Below, one piece after another: positions 5,727-40,368 of a stretch of 64,000 bases of DNA. The notes under the pieces were generated by a model. It was not told the origin of the DNA. It did no database searches and saw only the letters and a program-made list of their open reading frames with translations. Positions within the stretch are counted from its first letter, which is position 1. Each line of letters starts with the position of its first letter. The position numbers and the translations under genes were made by a program. This stretch comes from Asparagopsis taxiformis (lineage: Eukaryota > Rhodophyta > Florideophyceae > Bonnemaisoniales > Bonnemaisoniaceae). The stretch is from contig JALQPE010000228.1 in NCBI GenBank assembly GCA_030407315.1, positions 1 to 64,000 of the forward strand, given 5' to 3'.

Positions 5727-8700
5727 TCAGTTAGCTGGCCAATATTTTCTACCATAGTCAGCAAATATCTCCTCATCAGCTTCAACGTCTCTGGTCAGAA
5801 CGACCTTGACAGCATGGGGATTCTTGATATTTGAAGCAAAGTCCGGTTTGTCTATGGCATCGCCTTGTCGAAACTCGGCTGACTGTGTTCGACTCACCTC
5901 GGTCGCTTTCTCCGTTCCGTCAATGACCCGACAATCATTGAGGTAGCTGGTACAATTATAGACCGCTGGAACGAGCCAGACCTTCCGAACAGGTGCACCC
6001 CTCCCTATGTACGTGGTTTCCAATTCCATGTTGTAGTCCTGGAACCTCTCTCCTGTGCACCCAAATCCTTCCGGGCCGTACATCACTGATCTCTGCGGTT
6101 CCGAGTCTCGAATCTTCGCATAGAAAATCGTCCCGTTGTACCAGCCAATGACCGTCCCCTTCTTCAGTTTCTTCGCCGCGAATACGCCAAACCCACCACC
6201 TCTTACCTCCGATTGCGAAACATAGACACCGTAGAATGCGGCATCAGCAGCCAGAATCGCGTCCGGGTCTATGCTCCAAAACGAGTGCATGTCCTCGGCC
6301 GGCCACTGGTCCATAGGCACCCCGCTCAATCTGTGAAGCATAGACCCGTCCTTCTTCATTGACGCAACGAACACAAGCAGATGGTTCGGCAATGCTGTCA
6401 CAGCAGGTAAACCTTCTGGTGCATCTGAGATGTGCTTCTGACGAAGCCTTGGAGCTTTTCCTGTGACCGGTACCGACTCGTCCCCAAGAATACTCTCCAC
6501 CTCACGCTGCAAGATCCCCCCATATCGCCCGGCTTTCACCTCACTGACGAAAGCATGCAGTATCCACTCCTGCGATGCATCGTGGCACCTTTTTTCCTTC
6601 TCACACCCAATGAACCGACGATACGTACCATCCCTCAACGTCATACACGCTATGGCTGTGCTGTATGTTCCCGAGAAGAAATCCATCACGATATCGTTCT
6701 GCTTCGAAAATCGTTCCAGAAGCTCACGAAGAGTGGTCAACGCCTTCTGCTCATGGCGCAGTCGGTTGTTCTGCCCATCGTATTGAGCTTCACCAGCCGA
6801 CAACCTCGGAACGTTGTCAATCGCGTTGGTGAACCCAGGGTGCCTCGATATGTCCGGATTGTGCAACCTGTAATCCACCATATCGTATGCAGCCATACCC
6901 TTCCCCCGCTTATACGCATGGATAACGAAATCGTGCATATTATGCAGTGTGCACGTTTTCGTCGATGGATTGGACGTAAAGCTGTGTGGTCGGCGAGATA
7001 GCACGACTGGAACACTGTCCACAATCATCTTGCCAGGCTCGGCATTTCTGATTGCATCCATCCATGCCACGAGTTGGCGCACGCTGGAATAGATTAGAGC
7101 ATGACCGCCAGGCCGAAGAACTCGAACTATTTCACACGCAACACTCGCCAACTCTTCCGGCTCCAGAATATCGTACTCCGAGTTTTCTCTGCCGCCTTCC
7201 CGCCTCGTGTTGAATGGAGGATCAGTGAGCACAAGCTGAACACTGTCCTCCAACACGCCATCTTCCAGGAAACTAATTTTGTCCTCCACCTCTTTGGCTA
7301 CATCAGTGGCGTCACAATTCACAGTGTGAATGTAACGCCCCATCACAGCTTCCAGCTTGGTGACATATTCCGGCTTGGATTCCTTTCCGACGTCAACGAG
7401 CGGTGCTTCTGTAGGCGATACAGTGTCAACCTCCATAGCGTCATCCTCGGCCGCACCTTCTCTTGTTGCTGTTTCGCTAGCAACCGCCGCATTATCGTCC
7501 TCTCCACCACCGCGCTCCAGCCTAGCCTTCTTCCTCTGTGGCTCCAGACTATCCTCTTCTATATCCTCGCTGCCATTGTTTGGCACTGCTGCGGATATTT
7601 CCATCTGCGCAGGTGCACCTTCAAGGATGCCAGGCTCGGGCGTATCCTCAAGACTGTGCAACTCATCCATGGTCAGAGGAAGCTTTCGTTGCTCTCGGGT
7701 TCGCAATAACCAAGCCTTCAGCCTCCTCTGACCATCCAGGGCATGAGACGTGTTCAACTTGGCTCGCATGAACGAGTTCAAGCCGAACTTGTCAGGAGTG
7801 TCGAAAAGCAAGGCTCGAAGTCTCTGCATCAGCTGACCACGCTCGGCGAACACATTCACCTCAGTGACACATTGGCGTATCGACAGCAGGAAGGCGCTTG
7901 TCAATGATCGCAGCCTTGCATCCACAGCCACTGGAAGGTCGGCACAGAACCCGTTTTCACTGTCTACAGTTTTCGGGACAATGGTCAGGTTTTTCCGATG
8001 CTCCTCGACCGCGCAGCCATCAGACCGATTCGGGAGTGACCTGAAGCAAAGGCTCGCAGGATCGAATACCATGAACGGCCAGCACATCGATTCAACATCC
8101 TCATACCCCAACACTCTTGCCCCGGTATCCCACGCAGCTAACACACGGTCGACAACAAATCCAAGCTGGTTGGCTTGCGCACTGGATGTTGCAATTCCAA
8201 CCATTCCACCACCACCAATGGCCCCGGATGTGGCTCTGGCCCGCCTAGATGGCACACTGCCCATCTCCTTACTGCGAATAGCCAAGATACACTGGCACAT
8301 CATAACCATCAGCCTCCTGAACCGCTTCTGGCTAGCCTGCAAAGAATCTTGCATGTCGGATGTAGCGCCGTCTAGAAAGTACCTGCTCGAAAGCAGTTCG
8401 CGGTTCAGTGGAGAGGACAATTCTCCGCGGGGTGTCTTGCCAAACATTTCGACGGCACGAGAACTAGTCACCCCCACCTGTTTCGGAAACTCAACCATCC
8501 TCGGAGAATCACCCATCTCTGCATTGAGTCCCCATGCATGACAAAACATTTGCCACAGACGCAAATCAATCGCACTCGAATCTTCTGCTCGGTGATACGG
8601 CCGAAGCACAGCCAGGATAGACATGCATGAGCTGTACTGCGGTTTACCACTCAGGCTTGAAGCAATTTGGCCGCTTGGATCGCAGGATTTGATCCAGCCC

Positions 8701-9203
8701 AACACATCGGCCATCCTCACAGACGAAATATGAGCGTACTTGTCCTTTCCGTTTTGGACCCAGTACTCGTCTCTGAGATCAACGGCGATCATCAGATACT
8801 CAACAAACATCATGCGCCTTTGCAGGCCTGCAATGTCGTTGGATGTCGTCGCTCTCACACGGTCCAGCACAACAGCAGTACTGCTGTTGGTGTCCGCCAC
8901 GATAGACTCTTCTCGCATAGGAATCGTAACGCCAGGAGGAAAGACGCCCTTCTCCATTCCACGTACAATTGCCATGCAGCGGTGCGCTCCATCCAATATC
9001 TCCAGAACGCCTTCTCGAAACCTGCCAGTCACGGGATGAGCTGTGTCATAACCGCTGTTGCGAATGCTCTCCATGAGCGCTTCCACATGACTTGCATCAA
9101 CATCGCGAATCGATACGAATTTGCTGACTTGATTGGGGTCGATGAACACCCATCCGTCGTGCTTTTCACCGTGATTGTGGAACGTTCCTTCCATGGCGAA
9201 CAA
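5727..9203 (-). CDS. Module A: ParB-like / beta-class DNA methyltransferase / SET protein
   Basis: One uninterrupted frame of 1,158 residues. Residues ~18-110 are ParB-like, with LEILDGAHRCMAI around 67-79. An NLS-like PQRKKARLE lies at 555-563. The methyltransferase has motif IV as VLTDPPFNT (DPPF 661-664) followed much later by the AdoMet motif as MDFFSGTYSTA (843-846). That IV-before-I order is typical of beta-class N6-adenine/N4-cytosine DNA methylases. Residues ~990-1,152 resemble a SET domain: GGGFGVFAA, KKGTVIGWYNG, a YLND segment and EEIFADYG near the end. ParB-methylase fusions are known in phages and bacterial mobile elements; joining a SET lysine methyltransferase is unusual. The gene is divergent from the WWxA protein at 9,708. 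Target base and histone target are unknown. The family call is firm for the methylase, good for SET and moderate for ParB. Confidence 0.88.
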   Translation of the reverse strand: MFAMEGTFHNHGEKHDGWVFIDPNQVSKFVSIRDVDASHVEALMESIRNSGYDTAHPVTGRFREGVLEILDGAHRCMAIVRGMEKGVFPPGVTIPMREESIVADTNSSTAVVLDRVRATTSNDIAGLQRRMMFVEYLMIAVDLRDEYWVQNGKDKYAHISSVRMADVLGWIKSCDPSGQIASSLSGKPQYSSCMSILAVLRPYHRAEDSSAIDLRLWQMFCHAWGLNAEMGDSPRMVEFPKQVGVTSSRAVEMFGKTPRGELSSPLNRELLSSRYFLDGATSDMQDSLQASQKRFRRLMVMMCQCILAIRSKEMGSVPSRRARATSGAIGGGGMVGIATSSAQANQLGFVVDRVLAAWDTGARVLGYEDVESMCWPFMVFDPASLCFRSLPNRSDGCAVEEHRKNLTIVPKTVDSENGFCADLPVAVDARLRSLTSAFLLSIRQCVTEVNVFAERGQLMQRLRALLFDTPDKFGLNSFMRAKLNTSHALDGQRRLKAWLLRTREQRKLPLTMDELHSLEDTPEPGILEGAPAQMEISAAVPNNGSEDIEEDSLEPQRKKARLERGGGEDDNAAVASETATREGAAEDDAMEVDTVSPTEAPLVDVGKESKPEYVTKLEAVMGRYIHTVNCDATDVAKEVEDKISFLEDGVLEDSVQLVLTDPPFNTRREGGRENSEYDILEPEELASVACEIVRVLRPGGHALIYSSVRQLVAWMDAIRNAEPGKMIVDSVPVVLSRRPHSFTSNPSTKTCTLHNMHDFVIHAYKRGKGMAAYDMVDYRLHNPDISRHPGFTNAIDNVPRLSAGEAQYDGQNNRLRHEQKALTTLRELLERFSKQNDIVMDFFSGTYSTAIACMTLRDGTYRRFIGCEKEKRCHDASQEWILHAFVSEVKAGRYGGILQREVESILGDESVPVTGKAPRLRQKHISDAPEGLPAVTALPNHLLVFVASMKKDGSMLHRLSGVPMDQWPAEDMHSFWSIDPDAILAADAAFYGVYVSQSEVRGGGFGVFAAKKLKKGTVIGWYNGTIFYAKIRDSEPQRSVMYGPEGFGCTGERFQDYNMELETTYIGRGAPVRKVWLVPAVYNCTSYLNDCRVIDGTEKATEVSRTQSAEFRQGDAIDKPDFASNIKNPHAVKVVLTRDVEADEEIFADYGRKYWPAN

Positions 9204-9707
9204 AGGTAGAGTTTTTAAGAAAGGGATAGTTGGTTGCTGCTTGACCAGGGTGGCGCAAAGCAGAAGTTGGTTGTTTAAAACAAAGTGTCAGCGAGTGGTA
9301 GCACTTCGGTGGCTGTTTCCTTTCCACCCCTGTCCGAACCTTTACAAGATAACTACATCGACTGTTAGCTCAATAATCAATGTAATACTAAAGTAATACT
9401 CAAAATATTTTTCCATGCAATTTATTGGGCCCCGTAACATCTCTAAGCGTATCTTTGTAGTCCAATCGTATGCATCCGACATTCACTTCTAGAACGATTA
9501 TTCACATCAAATTTTATGCTGCAATCAGTTCATGGCAGACATCATCCACACTGACGTGTCAATTTTGTCAATTGTCCATTCTATTTCTACACCACCTAAA
9601 CATCTCTTCTGGACCTTTCCAATCCTCCTAGTATATACTACTCTTTAGCAGAAGGTAACGGTTAGGCTTTCACTAATACAACAATTCTATCCCATAGCTA
9701 TCCCAAC
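9204..9707. promoter_or_regulatory. Shared divergent upstream region of module A
   Basis: This 504-bp AT-rich gap separates two head-to-head genes, so it must hold both promoters. A TATATACT stretch near 9,632 lies ~75 bp before the ATG at 9,708 and could act as a TATA element for the plus-strand gene. No repeat family of the window occurs here. Confidence 0.35.
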
Positions 9708-11069
9708 ATGCTTCCTCTCGCTCCAAACGACGTTATAGAAGTTCAATGGGAACTTCGGCCGTTTGGGAGGAAACGAAAAATTGTGTGGTGGTCTGCAATC
9801 GTCAAGGAAATTACTCAGGTCAAGACTGAAACAGACCCATTCCTCCATGCATTGCTCGAATACAAAGCTGAATATGGTTTCGACTCTACCCTTTCTCAAG
9901 TCAAGATTTCAGATCGTAACGAGCTCGTCGACAAGGATTCCGGAAGGGTTCTCCCGTGGCGAAGTGGTGAGCTTCGCAGTATGGACTCACCTGCATCCCC
10001 AGCAGAGAGAGACCCGGACTACGGCATTGACCACACTCGCCACCGCCACCGCGGCATCCTTCAAGATTGCACTGCGGATCAAATGAAGAAGACCATAGCA
10101 GAAATGCTGGCAAGATTGGAAAAGCTGGAGTCAGCTGCCAAACATCCTCTTCCCCCTCCATTCGATTCCAACAGCTCCATGACCTCCTCTGCTCTGACTG
10201 TATGTAGCATTCTGTTTCAGAAGCTTGGTGTGTACACGGACAAGCCCCTCTCCCTCCGGATGACAAAATCCGAGCACTCCAGGGGAATGCGACAAACATC
10301 GCAAGAAGAAATCAGAGTACAGGCTGACTGCTCCCTTGCTCAATTCCGCACTATTGCCATTCAATGCAAGGCGAAAGAGAATCGTGACGTTCTCTTCCAG
10401 CCGTCCTTTGAGGACATCACCTTTCCCTCTGGAAATGAGTCGGATCTTTCCATCATTTTCCCCACCTTTCAGGCACTATGTGACTCCATAGGTACCTCGC
10501 AACACGGGTTCCAGAAAATATTGGTGAAGAGCAGGGCGGAACGCGATGGAGGCAGCTCATCGATTGTCCGAATTTTAGGAAATCTAGTCGACGTTGATTG
10601 CTCTCATGATGCTCCTTCTTCCGCATTTCTCGTCGGCTCATCTGCTTACGTCCTGTCCAGCCCAGACCAACGTATGACAGTTCTTTGCAGAGACTCCTAC
10701 GAGTTTGACCACGTCAACAATACATTTTTACATCCCCTATGTCTTAGCCAACTATCACAGTCTAGCATCGTGGACTCTTTCCACCTACGTGATAAGGCTA
10801 CTGTTACTTATGGAGCAACGTTTTCGTTACTGTGGAGACGTATTCAGCGCCGAGCTTGTTACAGCACTTTCCAGCCTCTATCAACCGCAGAGACGTTTGG
10901 TACACTACATCTACGCTTACCTTGCTGTATTTTCAGTGGTACTACTATATGCCAGGAGCTTGAAGACATTGGCTATGAGGCTATCTCTCGTCTTGGCTTC
11001 AATGCGGATTCAGACACTACCCACCCACCCTCTCCTCCACCTGCCACCTGCAGTCCGGAGCAAAAATGA
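9708..11069 (+). CDS. Module A: WWxA (Tudor/Agenet-like) putative reader protein
   Basis: 453 residues in one frame. Residues ~5-85 form a small beta-rich domain with the signature IVWWSAIV (WW 27-28), followed by an LLEYKAEYGF segment. This resembles Tudor/Agenet or chromo-like modules, though I cannot assign a named family. A short amphipathic, probably coiled-coil stretch lies at ~119-140. The C-terminal half has no known fold but is shared with the protein at 38,674-40,368: compare VRILGNLVDV with LRLFGTILCS and GTLHLRLPCCIFSG with GTLRVHMPYVIFRG. A role reading a histone or DNA mark set by its divergent partner is inference. It converges tail-to-tail with the coiled-coil gene at 11,345. 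Confidence 0.75.
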   Translation: MLPLAPNDVIEVQWELRPFGRKRKIVWWSAIVKEITQVKTETDPFLHALLEYKAEYGFDSTLSQVKISDRNELVDKDSGRVLPWRSGELRSMDSPASPAERDPDYGIDHTRHRHRGILQDCTADQMKKTIAEMLARLEKLESAAKHPLPPPFDSNSSMTSSALTVCSILFQKLGVYTDKPLSLRMTKSEHSRGMRQTSQEEIRVQADCSLAQFRTIAIQCKAKENRDVLFQPSFEDITFPSGNESDLSIIFPTFQALCDSIGTSQHGFQKILVKSRAERDGGSSSIVRILGNLVDVDCSHDAPSSAFLVGSSAYVLSSPDQRMTVLCRDSYEFDHVNNTFLHPLCLSQLSQSSIVDSFHLRDKATVTYGATFSLLWRRIQRRACYSTFQPLSTAETFGTLHLRLPCCIFSGTTICQELEDIGYEAISRLGFNADSDTTHPPSPPPATCSPEQK

Positions 11070-11344
11070 TAAAGCACACCTATCCGTAGTTATCCTGTTC
11101 CTGGGTATTCCATTCTAGAGCTCCTGTGGCCATCAATTTCTAGTAAAGACGGATACCCTCGCCCCTTCCTACTTCGACTATTCCACTACCTGTCTCTGCG
11201 CTTTTCCTTCGACTTGACACTATCGTCTGACTGGTTTCCTGATGTCTCGCATCTATCTACTTCCATCTATTACAAAATTCACCTCAACAGAAATTTTATT
11301 TCTTCATTCTTCGTCTACTACACCGAAACTGGTTTCATCCGATA

Positions 11345-12871
11345 CTACTCCCCTTCATTCTCGATTTCATCATCGACGAATACCTTCACATATTCTGCAT
11401 CTCCTCCGTCCTCTTCCATAGACCTGAAGCTCTCCTCCAGCACTGATTCCCCCCCATCGTCTACATTCAGTTCTTCATATCTATCACGCGATATAGTCAA
11501 AACCTCCTCATTCATGAACCGACTACTCACCCGCTCCCCGGGAAGAAGCAGTTTCACTGCTTCATTGATTTCCCGGATTTGCGCTCCTTCCACCTCTGTT
11601 CCACTTTGAAATTTCAAAATCGTTCGGAACCCGTATGCAAGTATGTAGATGAATTGCAAGGAGTATTCTGAACGTCGCAGGAACATGTTCTTATCAGAAC
11701 ATTGCGTGTAGGCGACTGCAAAGTTCAGTGCAACCTCTACTAAATTGATCCTCCTAGTCAAAAACCTCTTGTCCGGTTCTCCAATTATTTGAACTTCGTA
11801 CTCGACTTTGAATAGCATTTCTTTTCGCACTGCAATGAAGTCGCGAAGAATCTTCATATTCTTGTCATCCATTGCTGCACGCTCCGCTGCATTCATTTTC
11901 CTCTGCGCCGAGTACAGACTTGGAACTGACTCAATGTCCAGCCCACCGTCGTGCAAATGATGCTCCATTCGGACTGAACCTTGAAACCCACTGTATAGAA
12001 CGAATCCAAGATCTCGGATGAACCGGTTTCGCACATGATCTCTGGACTTGTTCATAAACCCGGTCACTGCTGTGAGTGCCGATTTCGTCACAGTGATGCC
12101 TACCTCCTTTCTGTGCAACGGCCCATTGTCACCAACCTTTCTTCGCTTCTGCTTTCGAGCGGCCCCATCACTTCCCTCGGACGTCCCATGCATTCCATCC
12201 ATGCGAGCAGAGTCCGTTCCGCGAATTGTCTCCTCAATGGTCCCGGTAGTCACATACCCCCGCGCCCTCCACCGTTCGATACCTTCCGACGTTCCATTGG
12301 AGCTGGAACGGTCTCCTCCCTCTCTGAAAGAATTGTTTTGACACGTATTCTTGATTAAAGAGGTCACAACTTGGCAGCGCAATTCAATGTGGTTCCGGCC
12401 GGCAAGCGTCCTATTGAACACATCCTTTCGCTCATTGCTCTGCCTGGCGAACATCAGCGTATTGATTAGCTGGCATCCGTTGAAATGCCTATCCCTCTTA
12501 TCCACCATTGCCTTCGTGTACGTTGGAACAACAGCACACAGCACAGCACACACCATTTCGAACGTGAACGATTTCTCCGCATCCTGCGCAATGCGGAGAC
12601 GTTCCCTGTCCTTCTCGGAGGCGATCTTCTTCGGATGTCCTTGTCCCTGGCTCAGAAGCCCATCGACGATGCTCTTGACCTCCTGCATATCGGTGTTTAG
12701 CATGGAGACAGTCTTGGCGACATTTCCGAGAGTCTCGCGTAATTGAATGGTGCTCTTCTCGACGGCATCCATTTTATCACTCAGGGCTTTCAACTCTGCA
12801 GTGATGTTCGAAAAGCCCTCACGCGTTATTTCGGAAAATGCGGCGATGCTTACGGAGGTTTCGGGATTCAT
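11345..12871 (-). CDS. Module A: coiled-coil partner protein of unknown function
   Basis: 508 residues in one frame. Residues ~10-75 form a heptad-like, Ala/Leu/Glu-rich coiled coil. A basic NLS-like KQKRRKV lies at ~240-246, followed by an alpha-helical region at ~255-430 and an acidic C-terminus. It is distantly related to the plus-strand protein at 36,874: FIAVRKEMLFKVEYEVQI corresponds to FILSRPELHIQVTYIVQV, and both follow with a hydrophobic segment leading to a TQC motif. It ends 275 bp from the WWxA gene, tail-to-tail, as in module B. No catalytic motif is visible, so I call no function. Confidence 0.72.
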   Translation of the reverse strand: MNPETSVSIAAFSEITREGFSNITAELKALSDKMDAVEKSTIQLRETLGNVAKTVSMLNTDMQEVKSIVDGLLSQGQGHPKKIASEKDRERLRIAQDAEKSFTFEMVCAVLCAVVPTYTKAMVDKRDRHFNGCQLINTLMFARQSNERKDVFNRTLAGRNHIELRCQVVTSLIKNTCQNNSFREGGDRSSSNGTSEGIERWRARGYVTTGTIEETIRGTDSARMDGMHGTSEGSDGAARKQKRRKVGDNGPLHRKEVGITVTKSALTAVTGFMNKSRDHVRNRFIRDLGFVLYSGFQGSVRMEHHLHDGGLDIESVPSLYSAQRKMNAAERAAMDDKNMKILRDFIAVRKEMLFKVEYEVQIIGEPDKRFLTRRINLVEVALNFAVAYTQCSDKNMFLRRSEYSLQFIYILAYGFRTILKFQSGTEVEGAQIREINEAVKLLLPGERVSSRFMNEEVLTISRDRYEELNVDDGGESVLEESFRSMEEDGGDAEYVKVFVDDEIENEGE

Positions 12872-13282
12872 CTTGACCTTGCAATTGGAGTTTGCTAAAA
12901 GGAGAATTGCTTTGAAGGAAGGATGTCACGCTTAGTACAGCAGTGTTGTAGCAAATATCATTTCAGTGGATGCATCCATCCTGGTCTACTCTACATAATA
13001 ATAATGCTTCTCAGTGCTCCGTAACGGTTATTTTTCATAATTTAGTGGTGGATGGTGCGTATTCTTTCCTTTGCCACCACCCACGTCCTGTGCATACCAC
13101 ACCTCGCTACCAGACTGACGTCTCCTACTAGACACTTTCAATGCAAAGATAGATAGGTATAATTTGAAATGCTAAACTCAACATATTATAGCTACTCTGT
13201 ACATTCTCTCCTTACGGTGAGACAAACCAGATATGTTCTGTTCTCCCAATCTTCCTTTCTACAACGTCCTATTCAGCATCTA
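12872..13282. other. Upstream region of the coiled-coil gene
   Basis: AT-rich, no supported ORF. It should contain the promoter of the minus-strand gene starting at 12,871. No repeat of the window begins until 13,283. Confidence 0.4.
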
Positions 13283-13777
13283 GCTTCCCCGCACCCAACT
13301 ATCTGTAAAGCACCATCACAATTAATATAGTCGTATACCACACACCATTCCAATATTTACCTTCACACCAACACTATGCTCCATATTTCCTCTAAGTCCA
13401 CTCCACCAGACAGTGTTGTCAAACAATGCACGGTACTACCCGCAGACAATACAATTTGCTATCTACACTACTGTCTACAGATTTCCCCAGACAGTGCAGT
13501 AATACAGTACAATGTATTGTCTCAGACAGTAAAATGTACTGTCTGCACATACTGTCTGGCGGCAACACTTCCGGACAGTAAAATTTACTGTTCTGGACAG
13601 TAAATTTTACTGTTTTTGGTACTGTCCAGATTTCGTGCCAGTTTACTGCTGCAGCAGTATTCTGAAATTTCCAGACAGTAAATTTTACTGTCTCCGCGCA
13701 CTGTCTTGGCCAGACAGTAATTTTTACTGTCTCAGACAGTAAATTTACTGTCTTTTTTCATTCTCAACACCGTAGTG
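13283..13777. mobile_element. Right terminus of a CACTA-like element (element 1)
   Basis: This 495-bp stretch is repeated at 31,285-31,780. From 13,400 on it is packed with short palindromes built on ACAGTA/TACTGT, the type of subterminal repeat expected for CACTA transposons. It ends in CAACACCGTAGTG, the complement of the left-end sequence CACTACGGTGTTG at 15,960 and 56,971. The base triplet just outside is TAA. The matching left end would lie before the window, which would place the ParB/oxygenase gene and module A inside this element. Confidence 0.65.
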
Positions 13778-13808
13778 TAAGCAGACCGGTGAGGCTCCGC
13801 GGAGTACG

Positions 13809-15263
13809 ATGGGAGGGAAGGCGCCCATATCCCGGGAACCAGCCAAGAAAACTGCCTCTGGAACACCGCGGCGGGGAGAAAAGAGGAGGAGAGAGCCGAC
13901 CACTCCTCCTCCGACTCGGATGACTCGGTCCAAGACCAGAAGTGCCGCTATCGCAGAGCAACTCATCGCTCTCGGTAGCCCGTCTTCTCCCCCTGTCTCC
14001 CTTCCGCTTCCTGCACAGCCAACCTCATCTGGCGAAAAGGAGCGTGAAGGTGAGATAGAAGACGGCGAAACCCCTACAAAGACGAAGGTGAATTCCAAGG
14101 GGTTTCGGGTACACAGGTATGAGGACGAGCAGCCACCGCCACCTTCCTTTCTCACGGAGCAGACCACGCTTGCCCAAGCTGCTACGTTCGTGCGTTCAAT
14201 TTCGGGTCTGCTCCATCCTGAACACCGCTCTGGGTTCATCATGACGAGTGGGGAGGTGGAGGAGATCAGGGAGGATATCAACTCCGCGGCTGGTGGTACA
14301 TCCGAGGAGAGGATTGTTTATTGGGAGCGGGCAAGGGCTAGTATTGATTTCGATGGATACATCGTCCTCGAAGACATACTAGGAGCTTCCGATGTACGGT
14401 CTGCAATCCACGAACTGCTCTCTGGGTTTGCCCAAAAGTTCGATGACAATGTGGAAGGGGCGTGGGGCACGATTCTGAACTCCGGTTCAGCTGCCGAGGA
14501 TGCCCGGGGTGGCGCGTCTCGCCAGCGGTACATGACCCCCCGCTCGGCTGTCATTAAAGACCTCGACGGGGAGCAATCCATGTCGCTGGCTCATGACAAG
14601 GTTTCCGTGGATGTCATCCTCGCAATTATAGCGGAAATGTTGCACTTGGAGGATTCCGTTTCATCTTTGAACGGATTCGAGAAAGGCTCCAAGCTGCGCT
14701 TTGGGAGGACAGGACTTCGGATGCTCCTGACGGGTTCCAACTGTACTCGTCATATCTCGCATCTCGACTTCACGTACCCAGGACCGCCACGCGAGGAACC
14801 GAACCGCTATTGTGGGACCCCTGCACCAGACCCAGACTATTCTTTCATAGCTACTGGTGCAGTTGGGTCCCCAATTCTGGTACGACCGCGGAGTCATGCC
14901 TTCCTCAACGCCCCTCGTGATGCCTTCCTGGCCGTCTGGCCCCATCTCCATCCAAAATTGGTTTGGATTCCACCCTTCTCTGTTCTCGTGACTCGTGGTG
15001 ATGTAGAGCACGCTGGTGCGGGATGGCAGGATTACGACTTCGTGAAGGACAAAATTTCTAAGACTGGAGTACAATACGGTCATCACATTCGAGTCCATAG
15101 CATGGTTGTACGTGATTCTTCCGAGCTAGTCAATGATCTCGTCTACGCACCGGTGCAGAGTGACGAACCCAATCGTCTGCCGAAACCTTACGAGTTCGCA
15201 CACGACTTTGAGTCGGACGATGAGGTACCGGATAGTAGTGAAGATTACATAACAGTTGAGTAG
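13809..15263 (+). CDS. 2OG-Fe(II) oxygenase-like protein, intact
   Basis: 484 residues in one frame. The N-terminal ~115 residues are basic and Pro/Ser-rich with NLS-like GEKRRREP. The domain opens with IDFDGYIVLEDIL (~179-191), like many phytanoyl-dioxygenase-type enzymes. It carries a full candidate metal triad, H318-x-D320 (ISHLDF) and H401 (RGDVEHAGAG), plus a candidate 2-oxoglutarate-binding Arg 428 (HHIRVHS). It aligns with the C-terminal part of the ParB fusions (GLRMLLT/GLRLLLT; PFSVLVTRGD/PYSVLVDRGD). The start lies 31 bp after the end of a CACTA-like terminus, and the frame is open back to a stop within that terminus. It may therefore be an N-terminally truncated relative lacking ParB. 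The substrate could be DNA, RNA, protein or a small molecule; sequence does not decide. Confidence 0.75.
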   Translation: MGGKAPISREPAKKTASGTPRRGEKRRREPTTPPPTRMTRSKTRSAAIAEQLIALGSPSSPPVSLPLPAQPTSSGEKEREGEIEDGETPTKTKVNSKGFRVHRYEDEQPPPPSFLTEQTTLAQAATFVRSISGLLHPEHRSGFIMTSGEVEEIREDINSAAGGTSEERIVYWERARASIDFDGYIVLEDILGASDVRSAIHELLSGFAQKFDDNVEGAWGTILNSGSAAEDARGGASRQRYMTPRSAVIKDLDGEQSMSLAHDKVSVDVILAIIAEMLHLEDSVSSLNGFEKGSKLRFGRTGLRMLLTGSNCTRHISHLDFTYPGPPREEPNRYCGTPAPDPDYSFIATGAVGSPILVRPRSHAFLNAPRDAFLAVWPHLHPKLVWIPPFSVLVTRGDVEHAGAGWQDYDFVKDKISKTGVQYGHHIRVHSMVVRDSSELVNDLVYAPVQSDEPNRLPKPYEFAHDFESDDEVPDSSEDYITVE

Positions 15264-25540: not shown

Positions 25541-25588
25541 CTTTTTCGCGGGGTCCGAAATCGTCTCCTTCTTCTTCCCGAGTGAGAA

Positions 25589-31780: not shown

Positions 31781-31782
31781 CA

Positions 31783-31904: not shown

Positions 31905-32284
31905 GACTAGTCTGGCGACCGTCTGTAGCTAATGGGGGGGCTTGAATTTAGGTGCAGTGTCTCTGTATTATTAGTGAAGCTGGCTCAAGGTTGTGGAGAT
32001 TTTGTTTAATGCACTGTCATGATACAGAATGCGCCCAAGCTGCATACCCGTTCAAAAAATTGCACCCCTTCACCAATCTTCAACAACAAAACTCCAAACT
32101 CTTTCATCATCCCGCGACCCCTCGTCAGAAATCGAGGCTTCCATAAATTCCAATTTCAAATTTTGCGGGCGCGCGGAAAAATCTCCTTGCCGTCCTGTCA
32201 GGCACATGTGCCGGATTGCATTGCAATCTTCTCTACCAATCTATCGCATTCTCTCTTCTCCCTCGTTCCCGAGCATCCCCTGAA

Positions 32285-33715
32285 ATGGCGCAGCCACAAC
32301 CCCGGCACGGGCTTGTCGAAACGTACAGCGAAGATGGGCCGATGCATCCATCTGACAAGTACGGAAACGGAACCATTCTATGGGTTGATCCCGCTCGCGT
32401 TGTTTCAATTCCTGCTATCGCAGGGGCTAGCACCCCAGCCTCCGATGTCACATCCGTAGTGCATCTGGATTTCGAACGTCTCTATCTGTACGGTAGCATT
32501 GCGGACAATGGTGACGTAACCTTGGTGGGAGGCATGGACGTGTGCGAGGAGGTGTGGTCGCGCCCCCGACGGAACACATCGAGATATTTACTTCGCATGA
32601 GCTACGAATCTATTACTACCAAACCACATACGCTTGCCTCTATTCTCTTTCATCTCCTGGAGAGGGAAAGGATTATTCCGTTCTACGAAAGTGTAGCAAT
32701 AGTCGCTCACATGCGAGACTGTTGGCATGAAGCTGAGAAGAAAGAGGATCATGTGCCCCTTACAGAACGTACGCTCACAGCGTTTCGAAGGGCTGTGAGC
32801 AGTATGTACAAGTTTGACCTGCCAGCGAATGCTTCAATCGTTCTGGATAAATGGTTCTCGTATGCCTACCATCGTCACACCTTTAACATTGTGCAAGCAG
32901 TCCGAAACTTCACCATTTCTGCTGGTGAAGATGGTAGTGTAGATATAGACACACGGGTATGGGATCTATTCCTCACGAGCTGTGGGTTGCTGGATTTATC
33001 CGTATCCTTCTTTATTCCCGTGTTTGTCCATGAGCGTGATGGGCAATCAGCAGAGGATCCACTCAAAAACTCTCAGAGTCCTGGACCACCACTTCCAGTT
33101 CAGAAAGAGTTCTACACCGAGCATAACTTCTCCCAGTCCGCGATTGGTCGAGATGCCTTCTCAAGACAATCACTAGCATGCCAATTCTTCGTTTCACAGA
33201 CCCAGGAGCGCGCTTCGCATCAAGATAGCTGGACAACTCCGAGACTTACCACAACTTTCGAGAGGGTTGTATTTCTCATGGCATTGATACAAATGGACCG
33301 AGACTGGAAGTTGCAGGCAGAATCCCGGCCACGCTCACGTACAAGAACGAGGTCTTCGAATAGACCCACGCCGCTTTTCAAGAAGGATAGTCCGTGGACT
33401 GCCCAGCGTCTTGGATATGGTATTCATGTGATTCTGAAGTCATGGGATGTATTGGCAAAGTCGCTAGGGGCTACCAATACCGAGGAGCTCTTGCAACCGT
33501 ACCTTCTGTACGACCAGAGAGTATTCACGTACCACGTCCTGGACTCGGAAAATAGGGGCTTCGCACCGCTTCGAGAGCTGAAGACTTTGTTGCACGGCAG
33601 AGGAGCTGTTCGAAGAGTGCAGCACTCGGCAAGCATCTCGAGTGCGGCTGTCCATCGTACGCTGCTGCAAGATGCTCAGATGCGCCTCTGCGCACGTCCT
33701 TCTGGGAGCACATAA
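32285..33715 (+). CDS. Module B: ParB-like N-terminal half of methyltransferase/SET gene
   Basis: Starts at ATG 32,285 (MAQPQPRHG), aligned with the start of the module A protein: ILWVDPARV corresponds to WVFIDPNQV. The ParB motif DGAHR of module A is replaced by GGMDVCE, so this ParB domain has probably lost its active or binding centre. The middle region is helical and aligns loosely. The frame ends at 33,715 while homology continues in another frame from about 33,650-33,690, so a 1-base-type frameshift splits the gene. Joined, the two halves would give about 1,155 residues, against 1,158 in module A. No convincing intron is visible. Confidence 0.72.
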   Translation: MAQPQPRHGLVETYSEDGPMHPSDKYGNGTILWVDPARVVSIPAIAGASTPASDVTSVVHLDFERLYLYGSIADNGDVTLVGGMDVCEEVWSRPRRNTSRYLLRMSYESITTKPHTLASILFHLLERERIIPFYESVAIVAHMRDCWHEAEKKEDHVPLTERTLTAFRRAVSSMYKFDLPANASIVLDKWFSYAYHRHTFNIVQAVRNFTISAGEDGSVDIDTRVWDLFLTSCGLLDLSVSFFIPVFVHERDGQSAEDPLKNSQSPGPPLPVQKEFYTEHNFSQSAIGRDAFSRQSLACQFFVSQTQERASHQDSWTTPRLTTTFERVVFLMALIQMDRDWKLQAESRPRSRTRTRSSNRPTPLFKKDSPWTAQRLGYGIHVILKSWDVLAKSLGATNTEELLQPYLLYDQRVFTYHVLDSENRGFAPLRELKTLLHGRGAVRRVQHSASISSAAVHRTLLQDAQMRLCARPSGST

Positions 33716-35754
33716 TGACGATCTGTCGGCACAAAGAATTGTTCGACCAAACCGTTTCTTCACCGCGAGCAATACCTTTCCTACAGGGCTTCCAGGCGTC
33801 GACTGGTTCCCCGGATGCTGGGAGGTTTACGACTATTCGGGCTCTGGGTATGGTTGAAAGGCAACTCACGGCATTCAGCCTCACAGAAGAGCCACAATCA
33901 ACGCCCGACCCTAATGAGGAGCTGTTCGGAGACACTGAGAGAACAGCTTCTCCAGTACGGGATTCTCCGCCCGGCGGGAACGGAACGAGCCCGAATGCTA
34001 AACGCAGACGACTAGATGAAAGCCCTTCTGGTGCAGGAAGCTCGAGCAGGAATAGCGGTAACAGCGGTACCGCCGAAGCGGCCAGAGCTGATATAAAATC
34101 CATGCGTGCAGAAGATGAAGTGTTGATTCCTCCAGAAATGGACAACATGAAAGGATCTGTCCTGCATACTTTCAACTGCAGCTTCAGAGACCTTTTGAAG
34201 AACTATGACGCTGTTGACAATCCTCGAAAGCTGCAAATCCGGGAAGGTGCTCAGTTGGTACTCACTGACCCGCCGTACACTAGGTGTATGTCCGGCAGAG
34301 GAAACTCTGGTTACGATGTCCTCCGTCAGGAAGAAATCGAAGACACGGTAGCTGAAATTTCCAAGGTGACGCGCAAGGGTGGTCATGTTCTCATATTCAC
34401 ATCTGCTGCTCTGTTCTACAATTGGGTATACGAGCTTCGCAAAGTGAAATACTCTACGGGTAGTCCTATGTTCGCGGTTGATTCGCAGCCTATCGTCTGT
34501 ACTCGGAGCCCCACCCATTTTACTTCGCCTCCGTATAGGATTACGACCAGTTTGTTAAATATGGTCGAGCTGGTTGTACATGCTGCGAAGCTGGGTAAGG
34601 GTAAAGAAGGCTGGGGGATGGTGAACTACCGAAATGCAGGATACATCCCTTCTAGGTTCAAGGCTTGGACAAATGTCATCGAAAACATCCCGCGCATCAC
34701 AGCATCGGAGACAGTGAAATATTTGGACAAGGACAAGAAAAAGGTTACGTTGCGCCCCGAGCAGAAGACCATAGCTCTCATGCAAGAGCTCATTGGACGT
34801 TTCTCAAACCAGGGAGACTTGGTCGTGGACATGTTTGCTGGCACTTTCTCTACTGCAGTTGCATGCTTTCCTATGCACCACGGTCAGTACAGGAGGTTTG
34901 TGGGGTGTGAGAAGTTCACGGACTGCTTTGAACTATCCCTTCCTAGAGTCAATCTTGCATTTCTGCAGCAGGTCTCCATTGGGAACTTTGCTCAACAGTC
35001 CACGCCCGCCCTGCAGCAGCTGGCCACTTCTCAACTCGGAACTTCCGATGACGATTCCCACTCGAAGAACCCCTCCAGTTTACCAAGTTCGACACAACTT
35101 CCACCCCACCTCATCAGCTTTCTGACCGCCATTTGGTGCATCCCAGACCACCACAATGACTTGATAGACCTTCCTATTCACAAATGGCCACAATCACTGC
35201 TGGGCTTGTTGTCCACCATGGATAGTAAAACCCTGCTATCAATTGATGCAATGGCACACAATGTATACGTTGCAACTTCAACTATACCTGCAGCTGGTGA
35301 TGGACTCTTCGCAAGAGTAGATATTGATCCAGGAGATATCGTCGGGTACTATTTTGGGGCAGTGGTTTACAAGGATCTCTACCAAGCAAAACTGAAGACG
35401 TTTGGTACGGGTCCGACTTCGTTCTCGATTGAGCGCTTCCAGAAGTACGCAGTTCAAATCAAGGACCCAAATATCACCTGCTTGCTTCCGTCTACGTCTA
35501 GCCGCCCCATCTTCATTGTTCCATTCGAGTATTGCGCTGCTTCGAAAATCAACGACCCAACGTTCGTGGATCCAGCAGAGGGAACCGATCGCCCGTCGCG
35601 AACTGCTAATGTTAGTTTCTCCTCCCCTGTACAAGAACTCATCAGTGAGAGCTCTGTGTCTAGCTACCAAGTTGTATGTGTTACTGCTAACGAGGCTATC
35701 TCAGCTGGATCCGAGCTGTTTATCGAATACGGTCATGATTACTTCACTGTCTAG
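33715..35754 (+). CDS. Module B: beta-class DNA methyltransferase / SET C-terminal half
   Basis: 679 residues are open from the listed ATG, but the true N-terminus is likely the upstream frame. An NLS-like AKRRRLDE lies at 95-102. The methyltransferase has VLTDPPYTR (DPPY 185-188), NSGYDVLRQEEI and then VDMFAGTFSTAVA (372-384), again IV-before-I as in beta-class N6A/N4C methylases. The SET-like domain spans ~517-675: AAGDGLFARVDI, GDIVGYYFGAVV, SKINDPTF, TANVSF and SELFIEYG. All key motifs are intact, so catalytic ability may survive even if ParB is lost. Downstream lies the plus-strand coiled-coil gene. Confidence 0.82.
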   Translation: MTICRHKELFDQTVSSPRAIPFLQGFQASTGSPDAGRFTTIRALGMVERQLTAFSLTEEPQSTPDPNEELFGDTERTASPVRDSPPGGNGTSPNAKRRRLDESPSGAGSSSRNSGNSGTAEAARADIKSMRAEDEVLIPPEMDNMKGSVLHTFNCSFRDLLKNYDAVDNPRKLQIREGAQLVLTDPPYTRCMSGRGNSGYDVLRQEEIEDTVAEISKVTRKGGHVLIFTSAALFYNWVYELRKVKYSTGSPMFAVDSQPIVCTRSPTHFTSPPYRITTSLLNMVELVVHAAKLGKGKEGWGMVNYRNAGYIPSRFKAWTNVIENIPRITASETVKYLDKDKKKVTLRPEQKTIALMQELIGRFSNQGDLVVDMFAGTFSTAVACFPMHHGQYRRFVGCEKFTDCFELSLPRVNLAFLQQVSIGNFAQQSTPALQQLATSQLGTSDDDSHSKNPSSLPSSTQLPPHLISFLTAIWCIPDHHNDLIDLPIHKWPQSLLGLLSTMDSKTLLSIDAMAHNVYVATSTIPAAGDGLFARVDIDPGDIVGYYFGAVVYKDLYQAKLKTFGTGPTSFSIERFQKYAVQIKDPNITCLLPSTSSRPIFIVPFEYCAASKINDPTFVDPAEGTDRPSRTANVSFSSPVQELISESSVSSYQVVCVTANEAISAGSELFIEYGHDYFTV

Positions 35755-35941
35755 CTGTTACCCTCTCACAGTCAAATTTCACAAGTAAATCCTTCTCCAT
35801 TAATGTTTTCACTCTGTTTCCCATACCTTCAATTTATTTTTATCGTAATGTACTCTTTCCCCCCAAGCAAGCAATGCGTAGAAGAATTTCCCGTTTGGTA
35901 CGTAATGCGTCTGCATAAGGTTGGACAAGGTATATTCTGTG

Positions 35942-36067
35942 CGTAAAATTTGGTAATTTTTTGGGCTCAAAAATTACTGCAGTAAAAACTGATCTACCCG
36001 AGTGCACTTTGCTAGATCAGTTTTTACTGCAGTAATTTTAGAGCCCAAAAAATTACCAAATTTTACG
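35942..36067. mobile_element. Foldback MITE copy 2
   Basis: Same family as 31,783-31,904, with arms starting GCGTAAAATTTGGTAATTTT and ending with the complement. Nearly identical arms indicate a recent copy. Confidence 0.88.
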
Positions 36068-36453
36068 CTGCCTTGTATGTGTTCTGGCATAGCCACGGGC
36101 ACCACACAACCCTACATGGCATGTCGAAGGCTGAGGTTTGGATACCAGCCGTTCTTAGTTGTTTGCCTTGTTCCACATGCGGACGGTGTCCGCTTGTTTT
36201 TCAGCACAATGACAATGTAGAGAGAAATGCAGGTACCACAACTGTCTTGTACATTGTACATCCATTCTCGCATTTCGTACATCATGCATGTACCACACGC
36301 AGGAAAAGCTGCTCAATGTACATTCTATGTGGTATGAAGTTTAACGCTTCTATAATTATAGCGTTAACGCTCCTAGCAACAAAACAGCCCGGAAGAACAA
36401 ACTGAGCCGTGGTCATCTACATAGTCAGCTAGTGCTGCTTACATAGTGCTGAG

Positions 36454-36574
36454 ATTAAATTTCGGTAATTTTTCTAGCTATGAAATTACTGCAGTAAAAA
36501 CTAATCTACCTATGTGCACTTGGGTAGATCACTCTTTACTGCAGCAATTTCAGCGCAAAAAAGATTACCAATTT
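36454..36574. mobile_element. Foldback MITE copy 3, diverged
   Basis: Starts TTAAATTTCGGTAATTTTTC and keeps ATTACTGCAGTAAA and GTGCACTT, but the arms have several mismatches. Confidence 0.75.
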
Positions 36575-36873
36575 CCTTGCCCCGAATATACCTTAGCCTA
36601 CGTTCTGCAAACACATAGAGATGTAACCAAAATAACTTCTCTGGCTGATTGCATTGCTGGCTCCATTGCTTTTGGGTATGCCCAGGACCGTTACTGCCCG
36701 CAGCTTTTGTAACGGCCGTACCAATGTCCTTATCCGTTACATCTTCCGTCCATGCTCGAGACAAGTTTCCCCCTGGTCTCTTCTACTTATCCTTCCCTTC
36801 TCCTCAGCAACGTTTCCAGTTCTACTCAAGTACTCTATCCTGGGCGTGAACCATTCAACGGTTTCCAGCAAAA

Positions 36874-38547
36874 ATGAGAGATGATTTATCTTTGACTAGG
36901 TTTGCAAAGTTCGAAGAACGGTTCGCATCCCTCGAACAGTACATGCGCGATTCCCTTTCGTCTATTCAATTGGAGCTGGCGTGTATTCGATACATGGCCT
37001 CCGCTGCTGCCGGAACAAACACTGTCCCTTCAGTTGTTCTGGATGAGAGATCAAGAAAAGCAGGTCAAATTGCCACGCTGGTGTCTTCTCTGTTCAACAA
37101 CAGGCAGGTGACATCTCGATTCGTCGCTTTCAGAACTGTTGCAGAGCTTGTTAAAACCTTTGTTGACGCCAATTTGCTCAACAATTGTAATTCGAGGTCT
37201 GCAACATCACCACAGGTGGATTCCTGCACAACGTTGCTTCTTGCTGCCCTGTCGTTTTCGCAGACTTCAAGTTCAAATTCTGAGGTAAGGCAATCCAAGA
37301 GATCTCTTATCGGAACGGCAGTAGGGAAACGACATGTGTTCTTAAAACGCTCTATTATCGGAACTGCGTTTATTTCAATGGCAAATGACAGAATTGTGCG
37401 ATGGAAGGACTCGACGAGCAGGAATGCTGGGGTCCTCGATCCTGGGGAGGAGGAGGACTTGAACAGCAATACTCTATCTCGAGACTATGCACTACGCAAT
37501 GCTACAGTAGTGCCCATCGAAAAGCCGTCTTGGCTGCACATTTCCCAACGAGCTCTTTTCCATGCCATGGATATTTCGATGCCCACGGAGGCAGAACGAA
37601 ACGTGGAACAGTCTACGCATTTGCAGGTTACTCTTTCAAAGCGTCGCCGACTGTCTGGTTCGAAAGAAGCACGCCGTACTGGTACATCCTCTTCATCTTC
37701 TTCCGCTGTATCCAACCTTTCTCCGTCTGACTTACAGTCTATTCCGATTATTACCTCTGCACTACGGCAGCTTACACAGTTCTTCAACACTTCCCGGAAA
37801 CAGATGAAAATGGAATTGGTCAAACAAGCATTCTTCCTCATCCACCGAGATATGAAGGCAACTGTGGATGTTTCTTCTGCCCATGCTGTTTCCACAACAG
37901 AAATGTGTCCACCTGACTCTATTCCGACAACTTCGAGAGCTTACGGAACAGGAGAAGAAGCTCTCGAAGTGTATTCAAAAAATGATTCCATCTTCTCAAA
38001 TTTCATTCTGAGCCGTCCTGAGCTTCACATTCAGGTTACTTACATAGTTCAGGTGAGCGGTGATATCGATGGTGAAAACATTGCGAGTACGCGAGTGGAG
38101 AAGTTGGCTGTCTGTTCATTCTCCTTTCTTACTCTAGCTATGATATTGTTATGCAGTTTTTGCCAATGTACACAACTGGAGATGCTCTGTCATGAACCTC
38201 ATGCTATTCAAGCATGTTATAAGATTGCAATATGCCTCCAAGGTTTATTTAACGAAGCCCTGAAACAACAGCCTACATCTCATTTTGGGAAGGATGGATT
38301 CCCCTTGCGCGTTACATGGGGACATCTTGAGCTCCGGGACTACCTCATGGGAGGTGACTGCCTCACGGGGATCATTAGAAAGAAGAGAAACCTAACAGCA
38401 CAAGAATACGAGTCTGTCCGTTTCGTTTCAGGCTTCAGACATACTGAGCGCTCAGAAGATAACCCAGCAAACAGACCAGTTTCCAATCATGATTGTGTAC
38501 CTCTCGAGGAGGATGATGAACTTGGTATTTCTTTAATTGGCATGTAG
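36874..38547 (+). CDS. Module B: coiled-coil partner protein of unknown function
   Basis: 557 residues in one frame. A coiled coil at ~8-45 (FEERFASLEQYM) opens the protein. An NLS-like SKRRRLSG lies near residue 253. A hydrophobic helical region (~395-440) follows FILSRPELHIQVTYIVQV, which corresponds to FIAVRKEMLFKVEYEVQI in the module A partner. The C-terminus is acidic. It stops 126 bp from the convergent WWxA gene, the same tail-to-tail pairing as in module A. No catalytic motif recognised. Confidence 0.72.
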   Translation: MRDDLSLTRFAKFEERFASLEQYMRDSLSSIQLELACIRYMASAAAGTNTVPSVVLDERSRKAGQIATLVSSLFNNRQVTSRFVAFRTVAELVKTFVDANLLNNCNSRSATSPQVDSCTTLLLAALSFSQTSSSNSEVRQSKRSLIGTAVGKRHVFLKRSIIGTAFISMANDRIVRWKDSTSRNAGVLDPGEEEDLNSNTLSRDYALRNATVVPIEKPSWLHISQRALFHAMDISMPTEAERNVEQSTHLQVTLSKRRRLSGSKEARRTGTSSSSSSAVSNLSPSDLQSIPIITSALRQLTQFFNTSRKQMKMELVKQAFFLIHRDMKATVDVSSAHAVSTTEMCPPDSIPTTSRAYGTGEEALEVYSKNDSIFSNFILSRPELHIQVTYIVQVSGDIDGENIASTRVEKLAVCSFSFLTLAMILLCSFCQCTQLEMLCHEPHAIQACYKIAICLQGLFNEALKQQPTSHFGKDGFPLRVTWGHLELRDYLMGGDCLTGIIRKKRNLTAQEYESVRFVSGFRHTERSEDNPANRPVSNHDCVPLEEDDELGISLIGM

Positions 38548-38673
38548 AACTGTTCTAGCTGGAACACCGCCGTCTTCATGTGACTGTAGTAGTTCCCATT
38601 GCTTGCCTCTGCTCCGCAATGTATGCTTCAGAATAATTAAACTAGTTCTTCCATGTTCATCTCACTACCTGTA

Positions 38674-40368
38674 TCATTTTATGTACTCCTCTGCCCTTTT
38701 CTCTGACACACTATACCCCACCACATCATTGACCACATCTTCCGATATTAACTTGCCTATTCTACATGGTTCTTCCACACCACGGAATATGACATACGGC
38801 ATATGCACTCTCAATGTTCCCCACAACATGTCACCAGCCCTTCCTCTTTTCCTTTGCGTCGTAGGTTCCCATTCAATGCGGAAACATTTCTTTCTTTCGC
38901 TTCTCCACCCTTCTAGACTCCCGTCACCATCGAACCCCCCGTGCACGCCACATATCGAGGGACATTCCTGCAGCTCCATTCCGTTCACATATTCACCTTG
39001 GACTACAGCACTACCGTTGCGAGCCAGACACCATACGTTCGATTTAGATCCGGCAATGCAGAACGAGCTACTGCCAATTGCAACAGATGTCGACTGTGCT
39101 TCCATCGTTTCCGAGCACAATATCGTACCAAACAACCGCAGAGCACATGGCCTCGCTGTTCCGTTCATGTCACCACACTCTTCATTCTCCTCCCCTTCCG
39201 AGTTGCTTATGTTACGCCTATAAACCAGAGACTCAGTTCGCCATCTGTGCCCCAATCCTAGCAGATCCGATAGTGTGGAAAAACTGGAACACGTAATGTT
39301 CACAGCTTCTCCGCCATTTCCAGCCACTGCCGCGTGAAGCCCTGGGTACACTTTGTAATACCCCCCTCGATAGGTTTCTGCTGTTCCCTTTAGCATTTCC
39401 CGGAATAGCTCAGTGCTCAATGAGATTGGAATCTGGACAGGTCCGCTAATAGCCGTTCCACTCGTGCATGCACCGTCAATCTCACCATGTGGGTAGCCAC
39501 CCCCTGGGGTTGACAAAGTGCTTCGATTAACCTGTTCCACAACTTTCTCTACCGCACGCTGCAAGAGCATTAACAAAATCTTTCCAGCCGATACTGTTGA
39601 TGCACAATTTAGAACCCTTTCGTTCCAACCAAGCCGAATCTCGCTAGCATTTCCAGAAAGCATTATATTTTCTAGTGTTCTCAGCCTTGTCTCCATACCA
39701 CTGTATGTTTTGACGTCAAGTGCTGATTCCACTTTTGGCTTCTTCCTCTGCGGTGATATCGCTTCAGATTCTCCATCTGATTGGTCATGACATTCTACTC
39801 TCTCCGCTTCGTAATCCACAGCCTCTCCATTGCTCGTTCGCCACGGTGTCGGGGGCTGGCCCCCCGACATCAACTTATTTCCGAGCAGAAACTTTACGTT
39901 TTCGTAGGCGACACAAGGATAATTCATTTCAGGAATAGCATCGTATAACAATCTGCCTTCTGCCACTGCCATTTCATTATGACTCGGCTTCACAGCGTTC
40001 GAATGCCGCCACGTAGTGACTTCCAAGACTGAAATCTCCTTTTCCTCCCTCGTCAACCTCACGATTGCATCATCCACATCCTTTCCATTCTGCTCCACCA
40101 CACCAGGCGTGTACATTCCATCTCCTCTGTCTACGTCGATGCGGTCTCCCACTGACGGCTTACCACTGCAGACAGGATACTGCTCAGGAAGTTTCATTTC
40201 CACAACCGTAGCCTTCCACCATATTGCGTCATCGCCAACTTGGAACCATACGTCTATTTCCGTTCCGACACATGGGAGTGCATCTACGGCAGCTGCCCGC
40301 TCACGCTCACGACCAGCTTTCGCTTTTTCGCTCTGTCGCCTAATTCGCAATGATTCACGCCTCGTCAT
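38674..40368 (-). CDS. Module B: WWxA (Tudor/Agenet-like) putative reader protein
   Basis: 564 residues in one frame. A very basic start (1-25) precedes the WWxA domain (~35-125) with AIWWKATVV (WW 50-51). A second SH3/Tudor-like half may follow (VGDRIDVDRGDGMYTPGVV). NLS-like PQRKKPKVE lies at 206-214 and a short coil at ~222-240. The C-terminal half matches the module A protein (LRLFGTILCS, GTLRVHMPYVIFRG). An acidic linker separates the halves. It faces the coiled-coil gene tail-to-tail. Reading of a chromatin mark is inferred from fold resemblance only. Confidence 0.75.
   Translation of the reverse strand: MTRRESLRIRRQSEKAKAGRERERAAAVDALPCVGTEIDVWFQVGDDAIWWKATVVEMKLPEQYPVCSGKPSVGDRIDVDRGDGMYTPGVVEQNGKDVDDAIVRLTREEKEISVLEVTTWRHSNAVKPSHNEMAVAEGRLLYDAIPEMNYPCVAYENVKFLLGNKLMSGGQPPTPWRTSNGEAVDYEAERVECHDQSDGESEAISPQRKKPKVESALDVKTYSGMETRLRTLENIMLSGNASEIRLGWNERVLNCASTVSAGKILLMLLQRAVEKVVEQVNRSTLSTPGGGYPHGEIDGACTSGTAISGPVQIPISLSTELFREMLKGTAETYRGGYYKVYPGLHAAVAGNGGEAVNITCSSFSTLSDLLGLGHRWRTESLVYRRNISNSEGEENEECGDMNGTARPCALRLFGTILCSETMEAQSTSVAIGSSSFCIAGSKSNVWCLARNGSAVVQGEYVNGMELQECPSICGVHGGFDGDGSLEGWRSERKKCFRIEWEPTTQRKRGRAGDMLWGTLRVHMPYVIFRGVEEPCRIGKLISEDVVNDVVGYSVSEKRAEEYIK

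Follow-up and report, generated by a model that had tools for sequence, protein, structure and literature searches.

Repeated methylase-SET gene trios of the red alga Asparagopsis taxiformis as cargo of nested DNA transposons

Why does the same set of three genes occur twice, 20 kb apart, in the genome of the red alga Asparagopsis taxiformis? The window analysed here, the whole stretch of 64,000 nucleotides at bases 1-64000 of contig JALQPE010000228.1 (C228), holds two trios, A and B, each encoding a DNA methylase joined to a SET domain (methylase-SET), a WWxA protein and a coiled-coil protein. An earlier note, made from the letters of the window, read them as copies of one functional unit. 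The open frames lie where that note placed them, and searches of the 141-Mb assembly lead to a different answer: both trios are almost certainly the cargo of nested transposons instead of a duplicated host module. They are probably, if by no means securely, accessory genes of two large DNA transposon families, to which they would supply a chromatin kit in the element's own service.

The coiled-coil gene of trio A is present in at least 85 copies, all encoding a 100% identical protein (85 scored of 1539 candidates), and its WWxA gene in at least 93 copies at a rounded identity of 100% (93 scored of 1224 candidates). Because the coiled-coil protein is identical at at least 85 places, element A has transposed recently. 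Its genes travel together. WWxA and coiled-coil genes are convergent at 280-281 bp in 54/54 copies on contigs common to both sets of matches (54 of the 85 coiled-coil copies, the other 31 being on contigs outside the WWxA set), WWxA sequence lies inside the 1.5-kb flanks of 30/30 coiled-coil loci, and the 3' end of the methylase-SET gene stands at the expected distance in all eight A copies sampled further left. All 30 fetched loci, the window included, stop at the base equivalent to 13777 (...CACCGTAGTG), while the flanks beyond this end, present in 29 loci, are all different except for one identical pair (L017/L018).

The ends of family A are inverted copies of CACTACGGTG, that is, of the 5'-CAC...GTG-3' (CACTA) type. 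Exact matches to a degenerate 19-mer that covers both types of end number 1293 in the genome (651 + 642), against none for the reversed pattern. Facing ends are flanked by matching 2-bp duplications in 5 of 10 pairs (GA on C104, AG on C19, GC on C74, AT on C64 and CA at 15960-31780 of the window), a match expected by chance once in 16 under equal base frequencies; this count leaves out 9 of 20 end stretches (on C75, C24, C122, C20 and C35), which are not oriented towards each other as left and right partners. One of the matched pairs bounds a full-length A copy of 25.26 kb (C74:32666-57929), with inverted CACTACGGTG ends and a GC/GC duplication. It encodes, in order, a transposase-like protein of 1267 amino acids (aa), two proteins of 1086 and ~1215 aa whose C-termini are related and dioxygenase-like, and then methylase-SET, WWxA and coiled-coil. 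Repeats of GACAGTA/TACTGTC number 18 in its first 1 kb, 13 in its last ~0.75 kb and 2 elsewhere; subterminal repeats are typical of CACTA elements. The same gene set spans 26.1 kb on C168, where the second dioxygenase-like gene is open but the first is broken, as is the transposase; in none of the A copies read are all six frames open. Elements of 14.4 kb on C104 and C19 have A-type ends as well, and they look non-autonomous because no C19 frame exceeds 157 aa in the part read (9.9 kb of each).

Trio B belongs to a second family, into which other elements have been inserted. Element E2, 15.8 kb long and with A-type ends, interrupts it in the window, and the empty site (...GTGGGGCATAAAA) is found in all three other B copies read there (C1000, C1840 and C2881), in which window base 15959 joins 31780 directly with a single CA; of the left piece of B, C1000 holds just 15171-15959. 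The right end of B is of the GTG type, and its 21-mer has 87 exact genome matches against none for the reversed control. The B methylase-SET has at least 66 genome matches (65 scored of 3470 candidates), 42 at ≥95% identity, 7 at 78-84% and 17 at 69-70%; among those at ≥95%, 28 are full-length, and 20 of these are stop-free, with frames of 1202-1204 aa. The left end and a transposase were not seen in the B copies read, and family B is known by its right end. A dioxygenase-like gene lies in the left piece, and its continuity with the rest of B over the part read in C1840 and C2881 shows that it is part of this element; C1000 retains just the last part of the gene. Protein searches with it gave two matches, one of them 98% identical (P0004, 549 aa). 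Since P0004 extends upstream of 13809 and the bases after the end of A encode the same residues, element A is inserted inside this coding sequence. The nesting therefore accounts for the 20-kb spacing of the two trios (Table 1).

Element E2 holds two possibly captured host genes: at 27738-28739 a WWxA-like N-terminus is combined with Sel1 repeats, and at 26165-27007 a frame weakly matches LPMO_10 below the cut-off (E 4.8e-4). In addition, the 6.4-kb stretches 16472-22823 and 57331-63711 are 98% alike, and each contains an extra element end (22371 and 63259) preceded by CCAGCCCTTATA, which looks like a fixed internal end of one subfamily.

These results bear directly on the view that a host epigenetic module was duplicated once. 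The open frames of A and the co-retention of the genes would suit such a module, but the 85 or more identical copies, the defined end, the target duplications and the empty site of the nested element do not. We reject it on copy number, defined ends and nesting, and consider it extremely improbable. The co-retention proposed in the earlier note is itself stronger than was claimed: pairing of WWxA and coiled-coil genes is invariant in the copies compared, and two families with different gene orders keep the same types of cargo.

Table 1. Transposons and their genes in the window
Feature	Positions	Strand	Remarks
Right ~13.8 kb of element A, a CACTA-like transposon of ~25 kb	1..13777	+	left part beyond contig start
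A dioxygenase-like gene	1029..4736	+	ParB-like motif near N-terminus; several frames in window, one 1238-aa frame in C168
A methylase-SET	5727..9203	-	ParB-like N-terminus, putative beta-class amino-methylase, SET
A WWxA protein	9708..11069	+	453 aa
A coiled-coil protein	11345..12871	-	508 aa
A right terminus, CACTACGGTG read inward	13768..13777	-	common end of 30/30 loci
B piece left of E2, holds dioxygenase-like gene	13778..15959	+	joined to 31780+ over the part read in C1840 and C2881
B dioxygenase-like gene (HxD...H...R)	13809..15263	+	5' end cut off by A insertion
Element E2, 15.8 kb, A-type ends	15960..31780	+	2-bp duplication CA/CA; nested in B
Right part of element B, with its right end ...GCTTATCCTGTG	31781..41357	+	similarity to C1000 stops at 41357
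B methylase-SET	32216..35754	+	two overlapping frames (32216-33715 / 33715-35754), frame-broken in window copy
B coiled-coil protein	36874..38547	+	557 aa
B WWxA protein	38674..40368	-	564 aa

How alike are the two trios? All three protein types occur in both, as first described, and in each the WWxA gene converges on the coiled-coil gene, but the order differs (methylase-SET, WWxA and coiled-coil in A; methylase-SET, coiled-coil and WWxA in B), the B methylase-SET is broken, and both elements also carry a dioxygenase-like gene. The methylase-SET proteins, of which that of A probably starts at an ATG near 9194 to give 1155 aa, are 33% identical over a 555-column alignment (E 6e-88). The coiled-coil proteins share 22% identity over 165 columns (blastp E ~1e-9), a score reached by none of 300 shuffles, and hhalign of the single sequences gives a probability of 73%. 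For the WWxA proteins a two-sequence search gave a profile E of 6e-4. The ratio of nonsynonymous to synonymous substitution rates (dN/dS) of the B-type WWxA gene, compared with a diverged relative over 456 codons, is 0.27, so that the gene is under constraint; four less diverged comparisons gave 0.39-0.79 and carry little weight. The Tudor/Agenet-like fold once proposed for WWxA found no match in a Pfam search to E 10.

A transposase gene is linked to family A. It has a relative in Gracilariopsis chorda (P0093), and some of its relatives match tnp2. In the alignment of the transposases D377, E688 and C399 are conserved in 26/26 rows, and D291 (one gap) and C396 in 25/26, reproducing the D...D...C(2)C...E catalytic pattern of the CMC/Transib-RAG1 (CMCT) clade with putative roles for the residues; several histidines are conserved as well, without a settled H(3-4)H spacing. 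The predicted structure of a relative matches the fold of RAG1, with an RNase H fold that appears RAG1/Transib-like, and ends in a predicted BAH-like C-terminal domain. The likeness to RAG1 comes from fold comparison alone: the sequence profile of the transposase retrieved no transposase from the PDB. Single-protein PDB searches gave nothing useful. Element A thus shares with CACTA/EnSpm and RAG1/Transib transposons the CACTA ends, the subterminal repeats, tnp2 matches in some relatives and a predicted RAG1-like core, and differs from them in its size of ~25 kb, its six genes and the BAH-like C-terminus of the modelled relative. The target duplication is 2 bp, both at the empty site and in the five matched end pairs, in place of the 3 bp of EnSpm/CACTA, and we therefore file the element as CACTA-like and not as EnSpm proper.

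The fusion of methylase and SET reported for both copies was borne out by Pfam matches to N6_N4_Mtase (E 2.3e-16 in A at 5727-9203; 8.6e-11 in B at 33715-35754) and SET (E 4.1e-6 and 7.1e-6; 27.6 and 26.8 bits, cut-off 22.4). A DPPF/DPPY motif followed by an FxGT-type motif is present in all six sequences examined (A, B, P0002, P0003, and the methylases C and D described below), and A, B and C score higher than the Pfam cut-off for the methylase; we take this DNA amino-methyltransferase to be of the beta class. The closest solved structures are those of an adenine methylase labelled DpnA (presumably H. pylori M.HpyAVI), of MboIIA and of CcrM, and, for the SET part, EZH2, KMT5A, SETD7 and KMT2 entries. 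Homology of the SET domain is thus clear, its enzyme activity putative. Protein searches with the A protein gave three matches, one 100% identical, and a scan of viral contigs gave one weak methylase-only locus (L087).

Related genes occur elsewhere in the genome. A putative high-copy family D comprises at least 140 SET places (140 of the best 150 of 1661, at 33.4-35.5 bits), many with frames of ~1084 or ~1154 aa. L088, the place read, encodes a methylase-SET that shares 22% identity with A and 28% with B and has no recognisable ParB region. That these ~140 lower-scoring places might be copies of A was rejected on the 22% identity of L088 and on the absence of C228 from the best 150 of 1661. 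Within the window, at 49836-55641 (minus strand), a third methylase (C; 1010 aa), with a DGMHR ParB-like patch and no SET domain, adjoins a DUF7869 protein. Because DUF7869 recurs with many identical scores and frame lengths (at least 150 genome matches, the best 150 of 502), this locus looks like another transposon type carrying a methylase. A retrotransposon gag-like frame (42733-43770, minus strand; E 1.5e-4, just below cut-off) lies in a GC-rich (63%) stretch.

The dioxygenase-like proteins share an HxD...H...R motif, present in all six aligned rows (two 98% alike, one read through stops), and gave no match to the TET/JBP profile at E up to 1 or up to 10. In combination, the cargo suggests a mechanism. 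Methylase-SET would methylate DNA amino groups, most likely of adenine given DPPF/Y, and also histone or other lysines at the element. Methyl groups would be removed or oxidised by the HxD...H...R proteins, and WWxA and coiled-coil would bind to chromatin or to the ends of the element. The kit as a whole may mark the chromatin of the element or, in the face of host repression, hold it open for the element's own transposase. Whether the kit acts in such self-derepression we regard as evenly balanced. The writing of DNA and histone marks envisaged in the earlier note is plausible from the motifs, which are its sole basis. The TnpA protein of maize CACTA elements demethylates its own promoter. 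A bolder version, which we hold to be rather unlikely, would be a private chromatin code, in which one polypeptide writes amino-methyl and lysine marks, the element's dioxygenases erase them and the RAG1-like transposase, given the BAH-like domain predicted for its modelled relative, reads them as a self-written licence for transposition.

The N-termini raise a different possibility, that the cargo is a weapon of conflict, its ParB-like domain attacking rival DNA that is unmodified, its methylase shielding the element and its dioxygenase countering the marks of rivals. The A methylase-SET N-terminus matches phrog_4272, of unknown function (E 1.7e-5), and the ParB-like phrog_1033 (E 0.003), and in the available text of PMC5512222 the bacterial ParB-adenine methylase fusion Bce_0392 nicks DNA and polyvalent proteins of phages and plasmids are described. 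However, the ParB assignment is weak: the A methylase-SET has no ParB match in Pfam, and the dioxygenase-like N-terminus matches ParB in neither Pfam nor PHROGs, showing a DGSHR motif alone. The red-algal protein further differs from Bce_0392 in its added SET domain, which a restriction-like role leaves unexplained, and in being carried by a eukaryotic transposon. We judge this explanation quite improbable.

What, then, might be written or erased in this host? An exon-wise search found no C5-cytosine methylase candidate in the genome (its control was positive in 10 of 14 prokaryote genomes), and A, E2 and B have an observed/expected CpG ratio of 0.84-0.89. For both reasons an eraser directed by the transposon against 5-methylcytosine is unlikely; an amino-methyl mark, possibly written by the transposon, is the likelier substrate. 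The genome thus lacks a C5-methylase match, yet is rich in near-identical transposon copies. Of its 13 phycobilisome-family matches, 11 are on contig C469, a grouping expected for a red-algal plastid. Absence of a C5-methylase match also suits a self-limiting element, which would mark its own copies repressively, on DNA and histones, and thereby be tolerated by the host in large numbers. In bdelloid rotifers, which lack C5-methylases, a captured amino-methylase with SETDB1 as its proposed partner silences transposons, as the available text of PMC8885841 has it, and retrotransposon DNA methyltransferases (DNMTs) are capable of de novo methylation according to that of PMC5890265. The many identical copies, however, indicate recent successful transposition, and a dioxygenase-like gene next to the methylase fits erasure better than silencing alone; we think self-silencing unlikely.

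Several findings weigh against the reading of the trios as a transposon-borne chromatin kit. Half of the end pairs (C168, C44, a second C64 pair and two alternative C10 partners) have no matching 2-bp duplication, and among them are the A-bearing C168 and C44. In the C74 copy the frame is broken in three of six genes: the second dioxygenase-like gene, methylase-SET and, at its end, the coiled-coil gene. TM-scores (template modelling scores) in the comparison with RAG1 are low (0.27/0.40), and the protein modelled is a relative, 37% identical over 74% of the query. A, B, D and P0002 have LND/IND in place of the canonical SET motif NHS, and the pattern was not found in P0003. Identity of the dioxygenases rests on motifs: Pfam gave no dioxygenase match, the single PDB profile match was to ectoine hydroxylase at E 1.8, and the predicted structure has a pLDDT (predicted local distance difference test) of 33. 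Its erasure target is unclear in a host with no C5-methylase found, and at the N-terminus methylase-SET is not significantly similar to the A dioxygenase-like protein (blastp E 0.18). Finally, the WWxA proteins of A and B are borderline (blastp E 0.001, reached by 1 of 300 shuffles; single-sequence hhalign 1.1%), so that the profile comparison of the partner pairs bears out the coiled-coil relationship and does not clearly do so for WWxA. For this reason, and because the B frame is broken, the three-gene observation as first stated is partly confirmed.

The statement in the earlier note that no such system had been described was too broad, since transposons with SET or TET genes are in print. 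Fungal DNA transposons (KDZ, EnSpm, Plavaka and others) carry TET/JBP genes (Kojima 2025, PMC12730594) and resemble the red-algal families in being DNA elements, among them EnSpm/CMCT with CAC..GTG ends, in encoding a putative methyl-base dioxygenase and in sharing cargo between different lineages. The cargo described in the available text is TET/JBP, whereas the red-algal elements combine dioxygenase-like genes without a TET/JBP match with an amino-methylase-SET and two orphan proteins. The same text cites SET genes in HarbingerS and MuDR transposons of Phytophthora, which belong to other superfamilies and are not described there as DNA-methylase fusions. Retrotransposons of dinoflagellates and charophytes likewise carry a DNA methyltransferase, in their case a C5-cytosine enzyme on a retroelement, with SET not mentioned in the available text (PMC5890265). 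Bdelloid N4CMT, from eukaryotes that lack C5-methylases, also pairs a bacterial-type amino-methylase with a chromatin domain; it is a host gene with a chromodomain fusion that, in the available text, silences transposons and is not transposon-borne (PMC8885841). Among open-licence titles and abstracts we found no methylase-SET fusion on a transposon, though an earlier description is possible, and a limited literature search found no dioxygenase-like gene next to an amino-methylase-SET fusion. As transposons that carry TET, SET or DNMT genes are already known, the elements described here are a new variant of transposon-borne epigenetic modifiers.

Transposons are usually subject to epigenetic silencing by their hosts, and this DNA transposon appears to carry writer and eraser chemistry of its own, in a lineage for which we found little literature on transposon control. 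If active, methylase-SET would provide a ready-made eukaryotic writer of DNA and histone marks together and a direct test of functional N6-methyladenine in algae, and a transposase of the RAG1 clade may prove to be tied to the reading of chromatin.

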